Assembly (NCBI GenBank): GCA_902521075.1
Contig: CABYQM010000003.1
Span: 62,001-126,000, forward strand
Length of the DNA stretch: 64,000 nucleotides
Reading direction: 5' to 3'
From: an uncultured Pelagibacteraceae bacterium
Lineage (GTDB): Bacteria; Pseudomonadota; Alphaproteobacteria; Pelagibacterales; Pelagibacteraceae
In this document: positions 9,954 through 64,000 of the stretch, piece after piece
Numbering within the stretch: the stretch's first letter is position 1
How the letters are laid out: every line of letters begins with the position of its first letter
Notes under the pieces: generated by a model
The model's input: only the letters and a program-made list of their open reading frames with translations
Database searches by the model: none
What the model was told of the DNA's origin: nothing
Position numbers and translations under genes: made by a program

Positions 9954-10448
9954 AGAACTTATTTTCTTTAATTCTGTCTTTGTTTCTTCAAGATTTTTAT
10001 TAAACAAATTGTCAAGTTTAGACTTATCGACAGATGTTGTAATAATTTTTTTCACAGATTCTACAGCAATATTAATTGATGTATCTTTAATTTCTTTAAT
10101 GGCATTATCCTTCATTTGAGAAATTTTAGTTTCTGCTAGACTTTTCTTTAGTTCAGCCGATTTATGAAATTTATCATTCATTTCAATTACAAATCTTTCA
10201 GTTTCATCTTTTGACTGCTGCATAATCTTTTCACTCTCAATTTTTGCAGTATCTAGTTTCTTTTGCGCCTCATCCAATATTCTTTTAGATTCAGCTCGGA
10301 GTTTTTCACTTTCATCAATTTCATTTTTGATATCAGTAATCATTTTGCTCAATAAATTATTAACATTTTGAGGAACTTTTAAATAAATTAGCGCTCCAAA
10401 AAATATTACAAAAGAAACTGCTACCCAAAATGTTGCATCAAATGCCAT
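9951..10448 (-). CDS. atpF: ATP synthase F0 subunit b
   Basis: Subunit b is part of the peripheral stalk joining F0 to F1. I place the start at base 10448 (MAFDATFWVAVSFVIFFGAL), giving 165 residues. That start gives the normal short N-terminus before the single membrane helix and only an 11-base overlap with the preceding gene. An in-frame ATG 12 codons earlier (10484) would add a lysine-rich extension. After the helix the protein is a long charged coiled coil. It is the last gene of the F0 operon. F1 genes are absent here, the split layout usual in alphaproteobacteria. Confidence 0.9.
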   Translation of the reverse strand: MAFDATFWVAVSFVIFFGALIYLKVPQNVNNLLSKMITDIKNEIDESEKLRAESKRILDEAQKKLDTAKIESEKIMQQSKDETERFVIEMNDKFHKSAELKKSLAETKISQMKDNAIKEIKDTSINIAVESVKKIITTSVDKSKLDNLFNKNLEETKTELKKISS

Positions 10449-11028
10449 TATGTTTTTCCATTTCTTTTTTAGAAAGATCTTCAACTATGGCTGAAAGACT
10501 ACTTTTATTTATATCTTCACCAATTAATTGTTTAACTAGATCGGAGGATGTCTCAATTGCAATTTTAGTAATTTTCTCTTGAGAGGTTTTTTTTAATTGG
10601 TCTATTTCTTCTTCAGCTTTTATTATTTCTTTTTCGATATCCTTTTCTAAAGATAATCTTTTATTGTTTATATCGTCCAAAACTTTTTGTCTTTCACTAT
10701 TAAAGAAGTTTTTTGCTTCGACTTTTGTATCATGGATAATTTTATCAAATTCTTTAACTTTTTTTTCAGTTTCTTCCCGTTGTTTGTCTGCAGTTTCGAT
10801 ATTCTCTAAGATTTGTGATTTTCTGGTTTCAAGATTGTTACTAATCTTTGGTAATATGAACTTAGATAAAATTATAAACAATAATCCAAAAGTAAGTACT
10901 AACCAAAAAATTTGAGATATCCAAAACTCGGGATTAAGCTGGGGCATACCTCCACTCTCAGCGCTTTGAGCGCTATAAGTAAAGATAAGACTTAAAGCTA
11001 GAAATTGAAAAATTATCTTTTTCAACAT
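10438..11028 (-). CDS. atpG: ATP synthase F0 subunit b'
   Basis: This second, divergent b-type subunit (196 residues) pairs with subunit b as a heterodimeric peripheral stalk, as in alphaproteobacteria and cyanobacteria. A hydrophobic leader-like N-terminus (MLKKIIFQFLALSLIFTYSA) precedes MPQLNPEFWISQIFWLVLTF, the membrane helix with the b' signature. A long coiled coil runs to the C-terminus. The leader could be a cleaved signal or an extra hydrophobic segment. It lies 3 bases after atpE and overlaps atpF. In some annotations the symbol atpG denotes gamma; here it means b' (also written atpF2 or atpX). Confidence 0.9.
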   Translation of the reverse strand: MLKKIIFQFLALSLIFTYSAQSAESGGMPQLNPEFWISQIFWLVLTFGLLFIILSKFILPKISNNLETRKSQILENIETADKQREETEKKVKEFDKIIHDTKVEAKNFFNSERQKVLDDINNKRLSLEKDIEKEIIKAEEEIDQLKKTSQEKITKIAIETSSDLVKQLIGEDINKSSLSAIVEDLSKKEMEKHNGI

Positions 11029-18046: not shown

Positions 18047-19116
18047 GTAGTTGGCCTTAGTCTTTGCCTTAAATCATCAATTGGTTTGAGTGAATTACCT
18101 GATTTATAATACCAAAAAGTCCAACCGTTACAGCTCTCAGCACCTAATATTTGTGCAGCAACTTTATGAATTGATCCTTCTGATTTCCGATATTTTATAC
18201 TACCATCAATCATAATTTTCGCATTGATTTGTTTTTTTTGATCAAAAATTTCAGTACCAGGTTTAATAATTCCTAATTCAACCAAAGATCCAAATGGTAC
18301 TCTTGGTTTGGATCTATTATTTTTAATAGTATCTAAATATTCATCTTCTATAATTTTTGTATTTTTAATTCTTTTACTTGCAGCTTCAAAATAGTTTTTT
18401 TCTTTTTCTACCCCAAAATAATTTCTACCTAATTTTTTTGAAACTACAGCAGTTGTTCCCGTACCAAGAAACGGGTCCAATATTAAATCACCTTTATTTG
18501 AGGATGCTAATACAATTCTGTGCAATAAAGTCTCTGGCTTTTGCGTTGAGTGAACTTTATTACCATTATTTTTAAGTCTTTCTTTTCCATTACATATAGG
18601 TAAATTCCATGTAGATCTCATCTGCAGATCATCGTTTAAACATTTAAGTGATTGATAATTAAAAGTATATTTTGAGCCTTCACTTTTTGATGCCCATATA
18701 AGTGTTTCGTGCGCATTCGTAAAACGTGTTCCTCTAAAATTTGGCATAGGGTTATTTTTATTCCAAATCACATCATTTAGTATCCAAAAACCTAAATCTT
18801 GCATTTTTGAACCAACTCTAAAAATATTATGATAACTTCCTATGACCCATATAGATCCATTTTTTTTTAAAATTCTTTTACATTCTTTAAGCCATTGAAC
18901 TGAAAACTCATCATAACTTTTAAAACTATCAAATTTATCCCACGCATCGTCTACAGCATCAACTTTAGATCTATCAGGTCGACTTAATTCTTTTTTCAGT
19001 TGAAGGTTGTAAGGTGGATCTGCAAATATCAGATCAAAACTTTCAGCAGGAATTTTTTTTAATTCCTTAATACTATCTCCATTAATTATTTTATTTTTTA
19101 TGTCTGAAATGATCAT
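18043..19116 (-). CDS. ccrM: CcrM-type DNA adenine-N6 methyltransferase (GANTC)
   Basis: CcrM methylates adenine in GANTC and times the alphaproteobacterial cell cycle. The 357-residue protein has the beta-class order: catalytic DPPY (residues 33-36) before the SAM motif FLGTG (216-220). It also has the C-terminal domain typical of CcrM (FGSLVELGIIKPG near 274, then GWTFWYYKSG), which is absent from phage Dam-like enzymes. GANTC specificity is inferred from the family. No partner restriction enzyme is nearby; the neighbour rnhB matches other alphaproteobacteria. Its promoter contains two GANTC sites, suggesting control by its own product. Confidence 0.94.
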   Translation of the reverse strand: MIISDIKNKIINGDSIKELKKIPAESFDLIFADPPYNLQLKKELSRPDRSKVDAVDDAWDKFDSFKSYDEFSVQWLKECKRILKKNGSIWVIGSYHNIFRVGSKMQDLGFWILNDVIWNKNNPMPNFRGTRFTNAHETLIWASKSEGSKYTFNYQSLKCLNDDLQMRSTWNLPICNGKERLKNNGNKVHSTQKPETLLHRIVLASSNKGDLILDPFLGTGTTAVVSKKLGRNYFGVEKEKNYFEAASKRIKNTKIIEDEYLDTIKNNRSKPRVPFGSLVELGIIKPGTEIFDQKKQINAKIMIDGSIKYRKSEGSIHKVAAQILGAESCNGWTFWYYKSGNSLKPIDDLRQRLRPTT

Positions 19117-19129
19117 TTTATATTTTTCA

Positions 19130-19158
19130 ATTAGACTCCAGTCAGGAGTCTACGTCAA
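19130..19158 (-). promoter_or_regulatory. ccrM promoter with two GANTC sites in a palindrome
   Basis: Reading the minus strand, TTGACG (-35, bases 19158-19153) is followed after exactly 17 bases by TCTAAT (-10, bases 19135-19130), 13 bases before the ccrM ATG. Between and overlapping them is the perfect inverted repeat AGACTCC-N5-GGAGTCT (19133-19151). Each arm holds one CcrM target: GAGTC at 19146-19150 and GACTC at 19134-19138. Methylation state could therefore directly tune ccrM transcription, as known for Caulobacter ccrM. Promoter use is inferred. Confidence 0.7.
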
Positions 19159-19194
19159 CCTGTGATTGAATTTATTGATTGATAATTGTTATGA

Positions 19195-61503: not shown

Positions 61504-61863
61504 ATGCCAGATAAATGACTTATCGCTTTAATTTGTTAAAGAGGAAAGTCCGGGCTCTACAAAGACACAGTGCCAGTTAATTGCTGGCGGGGGAAACCCT
61601 AGGGATAGTGCCACAGAAAATAAACCGCCTTATCAAGGCAAGGGTGAAAAGGTGTGGTAAGAGCACACCGGCTAAGTTGGCAACAACTAGCGCATGGAAA
61701 ACCCCACTGGGAGCAAGACTGAGTAGAGATGACATTGTTAGAAATAACTAAAAGCAGTCTTTGGCTAGTCATCAGGGTTAGTTGCTTGAGCTTTAAAGTG
61801 ATTTAAAGCCTAGATAAATGATAAGTTTAAATGACAGAACCCGGCTTATAGTTTGTCTGGCAT
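61504..61863 (+). ncRNA. rnpB: RNase P RNA (type A)
   Basis: The catalytic RNA of RNase P, which matures tRNA 5' ends. Helix P1 arms ATGCCAGA and TCTGGCAT bound the gene. Universally conserved cores are present: GAGGAAAGTCCGGGCTC (61541-61557), GGGATAGTGCCACAGAAA, AAGGGTGAAA, GGTAAGAGCACACCG and CAGAACCCGGCTTATAG (61835-61851). Total is about 360 bases, normal for alphaproteobacteria. Ends are estimated from P1 pairing. Confidence 0.95.
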
Positions 61864-61876
61864 TAAAAAATTATCT

Positions 61877-62451: not shown

Positions 62452-63897
62452 ATGACAATAAACTTTAAAACACCAGATATAAAAGAACTTAAACCACGAA
62501 TTCTAGTATTAGGCGTAGGGGGAGCTGGAGGAAATGCAATAAATGGAATGATTGATGCTGGTCTTCAGGGTGTAGAGTTTATTGCAGTTAATACAGATGC
62601 TCAAGATTTAAGATTAAGCAAGGCGCATACTAAAATACAAATGGGATTAAATTTAACAAAAGGTTTAGGTGCTGGAGCAAAATTAGATATTGGTCAAGCT
62701 GCTGCAGATGAATCATTAAATGAAATAGTTAATGTACTTCAAGGTGCAAATATGGTTTTCATAACTGCAGGAATGGGAGGCGGAACAGGCACAGGATCTG
62801 CTCATGTTATCGCTAGAGCAGCAAAAGAATTAAATATTTTAACAGTTGGGGTTATAACACTTCCATTTTTATACGAAGGTCCATCTAGAATGAGAAAAGC
62901 TCAACAAGGACTAGAGGAACTTAGAAAACATGTTGACACTATTATTGTTGTTCCAAACCAAAATTTATTTAAAATAGCTAGTGAGCAGACAACTTTTGAA
63001 GAATCTTTTGAATTATCAAATGATGTTTTACTGCATGGAGTCCAAAGTATTACAGATTTGATGGTCAGACCAGGTCTCATCAATTTAGATTTTGCTGATG
63101 TTGAAACTGTTATGAGCTCAATGGGTAAAGCCATGATGGGAACAGGTCAAGCAGAGGGTGAAGGGAGAGCGGTTAAAGCAGCAGAGTCTGCAATAAACAA
63201 TCCTTTAATTGATGATTATTCATTAAAAGGGGCTAAAGGACTTTTAGTGAATATAACCGGAGGTAAGGATTTAAAATTATTTGAAGTTGATGAAGCAGTT
63301 AACAAAGTTAGAGCAGAGGTTGACCCAGAAGCAGAGTTAATTATCGGAGCTATTACAGATGAAAGTTTAGATGGATTAATGAGAGTTTCAATTGTTGCAA
63401 CAGCGTTAGATGGTCAGCAACCTGAGCCAAAGTCTGTGATAAATATGGTTCATAGAATTCAAAATAGAAATCCAGGCTATTCCGAATTCTCAAATTCTGG
63501 ATCTACACAATCATTTCAATTTACAAATAACAGTAATTCGATAATTACTAATGGAGCAAATGCACTTAAAATAGAAGACGAAGTACAAAAAGAAGAATTA
63601 GCTTCCAACGGTGTAGATAGTAGTGATTTAAATGAAATATCAAGTACTTTAAAAAGCGAGACTTTAGAGCAAACGGAAGTTCCTTCAGTAAATGAAGATA
63701 ATGTTAGTATTGAAAGTAAGGCTGAAGAACAAATTTCAGAGAACAATGGCCTAGAGAATTTTGAATTAAGTGATGATGATACACCTGAACTATTTAATTC
63801 AGATACTAAAGAAGAATTATTAAATAATTCAGAAGATTCAAATTCAGAAGAAGAAGATTTAGAAATCCCAGCATTTTTGAGAAGACAAAAAAATTAA
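62452..63897 (+). CDS. ftsZ: Cell division protein FtsZ
   Basis: FtsZ is the tubulin-like GTPase that forms the division ring. The 481-residue protein has [15 protein letters not shown], the tubulin signature [13 protein letters not shown] (about residues 107-119), the T7 loop region [11 protein letters not shown], and a long acidic, disordered linker (about 340-465). The C-terminal peptide [11 protein letters not shown] binds FtsA/ZipA-type partners. It is complete and has a GGGGAG ribosome-binding site. Its place directly after mraZ and before rsmH is unusual. Confidence 0.97.
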
Positions 63898-63915
63898 TGG
63901 TCTTCAAAAAAATAA

Positions 63916-64000
63916 ATGAATGCCACCATAAATCTGGAAAAACATTTTCCAGTATTACTAAATGAACTAGTTAGTATTATTTCCCCTCTTTATGGTGGCA
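63916..64000 (+). CDS. rsmH: 16S rRNA (cytosine-1402 N4)-methyltransferase RsmH, N-terminal fragment (runs off window)
   Basis: RsmH (MraW) methylates cytosine 1402 of 16S rRNA. Only 28 codons are inside the window. After MNATINLEK comes HFPVLLNELVSIISPLYGG, matching the RsmH start HxPVLLxExxxxLxPxxGG, which leads to the SAM-binding loop. It begins 18 bases after the ftsZ stop. The first codons coincide with the nested inverted repeats at 63921-64000. Unusually many codons here end in C or G (GCC, ACC, CTG) for this A/T-rich gene set. Confidence 0.85.
   Translation, partial: MNATINLEKHFPVLLNELVSIISPLYGG
63921..64000 (+). promoter_or_regulatory. Nested inverted repeats at the rsmH start (possible three-way junction)
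   Basis: TGCCACCATAAA (63921-63932) is the exact reverse complement of TTTATGGTGGCA (63989-64000), a perfect 12-bp outer stem. Inside it lie two more hairpins: CTGGAAAA-ACA-TTTTCCAG (63934-63952, 8 bp) and TACTAA-N9-TTAGTA (63956-63976, 6 bp). As RNA this could be a three-way junction covering rsmH codons just after the start. The right arm reaches the last base of the window, so the stem could be longer. The role is not known. Confidence 0.65.

Follow-up and report, generated by a model that had tools for sequence, protein, structure and literature searches.

The start of rsmH in the Pelagibacteraceae genome studied here lies in a conserved RNA structure, the reality of which is regarded as practically certain, and this element probably acts on rsmH translation. 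In the preferred reading, to which a probability of about 0.5 is given, it is a cis-acting element of the ftsZ-rsmH mRNA that would set the level of RsmH, and in which a short ORF starting on the ftsZ stop codon (the relay ORF) and the predicted fold would tie rsmH translation to the ribosomes leaving ftsZ. The element was found at the right edge of the window, meaning the whole stretch of 64,000 nt that was analysed, and it continues past that edge (Table 1). The structure had been noticed in a first-pass annotation; the out-of-frame ORF on the ftsZ stop and the family-wide spread of the element are new relative to it.

Gene context and the fold at the rsmH start

The gene order is mraZ, ftsZ, rsmH. 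Usually mraZ and rsmH (also called mraW) are adjacent, and here ftsZ sits between them. RsmH is the N4-methyltransferase of C1402 in 16S rRNA. In the gene models of the window and its continuation, MraZ, FtsZ and RsmH each scored above their own NCBIfam cut-off (RsmH, TIGR00006, 262.6 bits against a cut-off of 154.3, with assignment to the Pfam MraW methylase family), and 3' of rsmH a weak FtsL match below its cut-off is followed by a penicillin-binding transpeptidase. FtsZ was found directly 5' of rsmH in 110/110 same-genus and 59/59 other-genus loci. An RNase P RNA (RF00010) lies at 61507-61864, upstream of mraZ (L002 13-441) and ftsZ.

Table 1. Positions of the genes, the candidate relay ORF and the parts of the predicted fold at the ftsZ-rsmH junction.
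Feature	Position	Strand	Remarks
ftsZ, upstream gene	62452..63897	+	TAA stop 63895-63897; ORF and NCBIfam TIGR00065 FtsZ, 383.1 bits against a cut-off of 295.2
Candidate relay ORF, 22 codons	63897..63965	+	ATG on third base of ftsZ stop (TAATG); out of frame with rsmH
ftsZ-rsmH spacer, 18 nt	63898..63915	+	Length identical in 110/110 same-genus loci
P1b 5' strand, contains AUG (TAAATG)	63913..63918	+	Partner CATTTA 64001-64006, outside the window (L002 2002-2007); 96.9% of cells paired, 91 distinct sequences
rsmH start, ATG 63916-63918	63916..64000	+	330 codons, runs past window edge
P1 5' strand, outer stem, TGCCACCATAAA	63921..63932	+	97.4% of cells paired
P2 hairpin	63934..63952	+	Part also present in genera without P1 and P3; 82.5% of cells paired
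P3 hairpin	63956..63976	+	97.1% of cells paired
Unpaired joining strand with invariant CCCCT	63977..63988	+	C72-C75 and T76 invariant, 91 distinct sequences
P1 3' strand, outer stem, TTTATGGTGGCA	63989..64000	+	Encodes YGG of RsmH

The nested repeats described earlier were reproduced base by base. TGCCACCATAAA is the exact reverse complement of TTTATGGTGGCA, CTGGAAAA (63934-63941) pairs with TTTTCCAG (63945-63952) in 8 bp with a 3-nt loop, and TACTAA (63956-63961) pairs with TTAGTA (63971-63976) in 6 bp with a 9-nt loop. The outer arm begins 2 bases after the rsmH ATG. An extension beyond the window edge had been considered possible and was found in the following bases, where a 2-nt bulge (two A) is followed by 6 more pairs taking in the rsmH AUG, and the suggested three-way junction is also predicted by folding, as a three-helix junction over the first 30 rsmH codons. 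The codons that had been called rare are rare indeed: counted over ftsZ, the penicillin-binding-protein gene and the remainder of rsmH, GCC, ACC and CTG have shares of 0.04, 0.08 and 0.06 among the codons of the respective amino acid.

For the 85-nt RNA a folding energy of -25.6 kcal/mol was computed, compared with -11.2 (sd 2.6) in dinucleotide shuffles, none of which was as stable (0/200). Folding of the junction together with the following bases, as had been recommended, gave a z of -3.8 for a 211-nt piece, with 1/200 shuffles as stable. Of the 66 ORF starts in the window plus its continuation, that of rsmH has the lowest folding z (-5.2), and its AUG is predicted to be unpaired with a probability of 0.01, against a median of 0.51. 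Energy alone is not unique to the element: in a scan of 8534 sliding 99-nt pieces, the lowest 15 range from -32.4 to -29.2, and several of them fall in tRNA or RNase P genes or their antisense. The second-lowest folding z of the 66 starts (-4.8) belongs to the ORF 10438-11028 (-), with a hairpin around AGCGCTCAAAGCGCT; this ORF matches ATP synthase subunit B/B' models, above the cut-off for Pfam ATP-synt_B and below it for NCBIfam.

Conservation and spread of the structure

RsmH was detected in 114 of 151 same-genus genomes, own genome included, and 5' ends were taken from 110 of them (30 loci from the search and 80 by place), omitting four in which the match was partial, broken or weak (G036, G090, G113, G148). 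A strict element pattern was found at 107 of the 110 rsmH starts of this genus (g1), and a wider one, fitted to L031, L044 and L051, covers all 110. The printed sequences of these three were read by eye. L044 keeps P1 through a change of A-U to G-C, L051 is damaged by two mismatches, and L031 (2300-2560, -) keeps P1 through a change of C-G to U-A at the expense of the RsmH YGG, which becomes YSG, as if RNA outweighed protein there.

Selection for the structure, suggested earlier from codon use, is borne out by two-sided changes in all helices, by stability beyond that of synonymous recodings and by family-wide presence. In the 91 distinct sequences, 92.2% of cells are paired. Cells with two-sided change number 136, compared with 51 (sd 5) after shuffling (0/500 as many) and 5-30 in slid registers. 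Weaker measures of covariation were pairs with two-sided change (10 against 7.9, reached by 15/500 shuffles) and pair types (33 against 30.4, 28/500). The alignment of junctions and test for compensatory change that had been called for was also carried out with unit-cost parsimony on a tree built from some 165 nt of coding DNA further downstream in 109 of the 110 loci. It gave 29 two-sided pair changes (P1b 1, P1 5, P2 14, P3 9), along with 74 one-sided changes with pairing kept, 96 with a pair lost (59 in P2) and 16 with a pair regained. RNAalifold without guidance returned nine P1 pairs only, with a covariation term of -0.18. None of 2000 synonymous recodings of the window's element was as stable, and the 91 sequences showed a mean z of -5.0 against their recodings, with 5/18200 as stable.

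A covariance model built on the sense strand reached 103.9 bits on that strand of the own genome, against 25.9 on the antisense, with no other match up to E 10 among 150 candidates scored. Counts of G-U versus A-C were 13:1 in the P1 core, 30:4 in P3, 6:3 in P1b and 70:52 in P2, in total 121:78, with the reverse (2:18) at the P1 pair adjoining P2.

In a search of the family with this model, 91 of 197 genomes matched (56/77 near-complete ones), in 11 of 14 genera. Matches of at least 70 bits were obtained in g1, g3, g6, g8, g10, g11 and g13, and weak ones of 25-40 bits in g4, g7, g9 and g12. All of the 40 other-genus matches inspected (about 20 weak and 20 strong) sit at the rsmH start, so that seven genera have strong matches and four a reduced hairpin. 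The weak matches are made up largely of the P2 hairpin, whose stem contains or adjoins the start codon in g9 and g12. Genus g5 gave no model match, yet has a longer near-perfect hairpin at the rsmH start, and g2 is without P2, but its AUG is predicted to pair with another strand (unpaired below 0.2 in 3/3). A mostly open first AUG is predicted in g3, g11 and g13, where the fold covers the codons that follow and another in-frame AUG corresponding to the start in g9 and g12. The N-terminal extension MNAT may have supplied the P1 5' strand later.

Thirty genomes, 25 of them without a model match, were searched again, and rsmH was present in 19; it was not matched in five same-genus genomes of 90-97% completeness (G086, G334, G141, G078, G056), reflecting an assembly gap or real loss. 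In a sample of 197 genomes of the order, all 118 matching ones belong to the same family; 59 non-matching entries have no family listed. An exact 19-base pattern gave at least 120 matches in named genomes, and all 80 of the matches listed carry the title Pelagibacter, Pelagibacteraceae or Pelagibacterales; an exact 17-mer had three matches in viral contigs. In a search of the class, RsmH was found in 92 genomes of other families, and in the best 28 of these 92 loci the model found nothing at rsmH, with one 16.3-bit match elsewhere. Among these same loci of other alphaproteobacterial families, 0/27 parsed starts had z < -3 (mean +0.25, lowest -2.3; starts were assigned to the ATG closest to the motif, which is sometimes not the real start), compared with 94/108 parsed same-genus starts.

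The candidate relay ORF and proposed coupling to ftsZ

The overlap of the ftsZ stop with an ATG (TAATG) was found in 110/110 same-genus loci, each with the 18-nt spacer. In this genus the ORF passes the rsmH AUG out of frame and ends within the element after 13-27 codons, in the window within the loop of the third hairpin (P3). Further loci, partly from the same genomes as the 110, showed TAATG in 39/39, in 78 of 79 parsed (80 given) and in 38 of 38 parsed (40 given); in the second set L310 has TAATTG and two loci are of the 22-nt g3 kind, and in the third one locus has a later ATG as in g8. Among 59 loci of other genera, 40 have an ORF beginning with ATG that runs across the rsmH start, or 37 of 54 when five duplicates are counted once (g3 13/13, g4 12/15, g6 2/2, g8 2/2, g9 7/7, g10 1/1, g11 2/2, g13 1/1). 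Despite differing spacer sequence and length, the ATG-to-ATG distances there are 7, 19, 22, 25 and 28 nt, all 1 mod 3 (that of L167 measured from its later in-frame ATG), and crossings in the other frame are short TTG ones only (L157, L175, L176, L203). Three g4 loci have only a TTG. Against a relay, no such ATG-started ORF was present in g2 (0/3), g5 (0/4) or g7 (0/2), and in g12 the ORF starts with GTG in four loci and with TTG in one, and is absent from two.

No comparable ORF was found at 53 other junctions with gaps of 10-45 nt on 80 SAR11 contigs, using simple ORF calls from the first ATG; the 53 are what was left of 56 after removing three with an ORF that proved to be rsmH junctions. 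As a separate possibility, a +1 frameshift carrying ribosomes out of the relay ORF and into rsmH was set aside, since the rsmH ATG itself is kept in all 110 g1 loci, which were located with a pattern that requires an ATG there.

In the proposed mechanism, ribosomes finishing ftsZ would re-start at the overlapping ATG and translate the relay ORF, and the relay ribosome would melt the fold in passing. A following or backing-up ribosome could then use the rsmH AUG. RsmH would be made in step with ftsZ translation, at a lower rate, and independent starts on rsmH by free 30S subunits would be rare. That the relay ORF is translated, and the sign of its effect, we infer.

Folding predictions place the AUG below an unpaired probability of 0.2 in 96 of the 110 g1 loci, i.e., the start would be buried in the window's genus. 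Besides g2 above, values below 0.2 were obtained in g5 (3/4), g6 (1/2), g8 (1/1), g9 (4/5), g10 (1/1) and g12 (6/6). However, the start is not predicted to be buried in all carriers (g3 1/12, g4 5/14, g7 0/2, g11 0/2, g13 0/1), which counts against the relay. When ribosome footprints were masked in the window, a terminating ftsZ ribosome left the AUG at a predicted 0.01, and a relay ribosome gave 0.41 at codon 1, covered the AUG at codons 2-12, and gave 0.40 at codon 13 and 0.19 at codon 14. Past codon 14 the stem is predicted to close behind the relay ribosome, again unfavourable to the relay. In L038 the relay stop lies 23 nt after the AUG, which reaches a predicted 0.56 with the ribosome at the last codon.

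Predictions for the eight loci modelled were mixed. The g9 locus L213 would open (0.44-0.85 behind the ribosome), and the g6 locus L168 early and late. Contrary to the relay, in the g4 locus L157 the ftsZ ribosome would cause opening (0.38 to 0.74) and the relay ribosome none (0.30-0.35), and the g3 locus L199 would be open throughout. Where predicted, the opening lasts only briefly, as would befit a low-yield relay and also a decoy. As a decoy or insulator, the relay ORF would lead ribosomes coming from ftsZ out of frame across the rsmH start, the fold would bar free ribosomes, and together they would hold RsmH low beside the highly made FtsZ. The anatomy fits this equally, including the predicted covering of the AUG by a relay ribosome at codons 2-12 in the window. 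However, the fold alone would suffice to keep RsmH low, and an extra ORF that opened it would work against that; a decoy is considered unlikely.

Of the three uses originally proposed for the element, the translational one fits best, an RNase site is kept as a rival and a DNA cruciform is disfavoured. SAR11 bacteria belong to the most numerous cells in the oceans and are regarded as carrying little regulation. If the relay reading is true, cell division, ribosome modification and translation would be linked in a very small genome, and elements inside coding starts, such as this one, would escape screens limited to intergenic DNA.

Known systems and alternative readings

The tap-repA control of plasmid R1 relies on a leader peptide, a small ORF whose translation unfolds the structure over the following start; the SAR11 case differs in having no antisense RNA or replication gene. 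Coupling through RNA unfolding and ribosome-delivering short ORFs are described in the available part of a review (PMC12548453). As there, the downstream start would be buried in RNA structure, and upstream translation with a stop-start overlap could expose this start or bring a ribosome to it. The SAR11 arrangement differs from the coupling described there by a third, out-of-frame ORF between the two genes, overlapping the start it would open, and by a fold within the coding region conserved over the family.

Two structured-RNA reports come close by gene or by organism. The mraW RNA motif (RF01746, Actinomycetales, PMC2864571, as far as its available text goes) is named after the same gene, but belongs to another phylum; it was absent among the element's Rfam matches at E up to 5 and, at gathering score, from the window, which holds the element without its last 6 bases. 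A 2009 screen in Pelagibacter (PMC2704228) dealt with conserved structured RNAs of the same organisms; the part available ranks intergenic regions >100 bp, and mraW and ftsZ do not occur in its main text. In titles and abstracts of the open-licence literature (the best-ranked part of longer lists, with subscription papers mostly outside), no RNA element or relay ORF at the SAR11 ftsZ-rsmH junction was found.

A protein or ligand might instead bind the junction with the unpaired CCCCUC and hold the start closed or open, as autogenous or metabolite control. The fixed CCCCUC strand is not explained by unfolding alone, which counts against the relay. CCCCT is invariant in 91/91 distinct sequences though the codon before Pro switches between Ser and Thr (TCC, ACC), with GCC in the g3 locus L175, and TCC makes up only 0.05 of the Ser codons in the three genes used above for codon counts. 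On the other hand, Rfam matches at E up to 5 were all far below their cut-offs, with none over the element, none near it above chance level and no known aptamer reaching its cut-off. The reduced forms in g5, g7, g9 and g12 are without the CCCCUC strand, and a local match to 16S rRNA, the substrate of RsmH, was no better than chance; binding seems about as unlikely as a decoy. UUUCCCCUC of the joining strand could also pair with the ftsZ ribosome-binding site (GGGGA); GGGG is present in this site in many g1 loci and absent in L019 and L030.

Autogenous circuits with the ribosome as sensor are known for IF3 and RF2, by other means. In the B. subtilis work of a 2026 preprint (PMC13317604, available part), mRNAs whose early codons are occluded (cmpA, isp, yukJ) are reported to be translated less efficiently by ribosomes without the MraW/RsmH mark, a dependence said to be reduced by breaking the stem. 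Stem-loops over the start or early codons are likewise predicted in SAR11 rsmH; the targets described there are other genes, whereas in SAR11 the occluded message would be RsmH's own. Since RsmH methylates the ribosomal P-site and unmarked ribosomes are reported there to be poorer at occluded starts, rsmH translation might depend on methylation of the ribosome pool, with the ribosome itself as sensor. The string "Autoregulat" does not occur in the text available of that preprint. Such a circuit is judged quite unlikely; tuning of occluded-start translation by RsmH would be a new claim that can be tested on RsmH's own message. A different candidate, autoregulation of RsmH by mimicry of 16S h44 (the C1402 region), was rejected, as h44/h45 matches were equalled in 166, 230 and 199 of 300 shuffles for three elements, and whole-16S matches in 279, 261 and 246 of 300.

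An RNase III or RNase E site separating the ftsZ mRNA from the rsmH mRNA would agree with the long, near-continuous helix (P1b, P1, P2), the AU-rich single strand beside the stems and the long near-perfect hairpin of g5. This is held improbable: a cut inside the rsmH coding start would destroy that message, and many mismatches are tolerated in P2 (82.5% paired). In a dual-coding reading, the out-of-frame ORF would be a small protein under selection that freezes rsmH bases, and its similar ends (PSTWWH.Y and close variants, about 40 codons) in g3, g6, g8, g10, g11 and g13 are in line with this. It is very improbable, however, as g1 ORF ends vary while the fold persists, two-sided changes follow the fold, and first codons differ widely among g3 loci. 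A DNA cruciform or DNA-binding site, for which the long inverted repeat could be cited, or no function at all, has almost no chance, because the model scores far higher on the sense strand and G-U exceeds A-C in the best-aligned helices (P1 core and P3), and the recoding test also stands against it.

Two smaller features were recorded alongside. A candidate hairpin surrounds the ftsZ stop (GAAGAC/GTCTTC), its inner pair being variable among same-genus loci, and a bablM sRNA match of Rfam lies at 19113-19181 (-), with 50 bits against a cut-off of 38.
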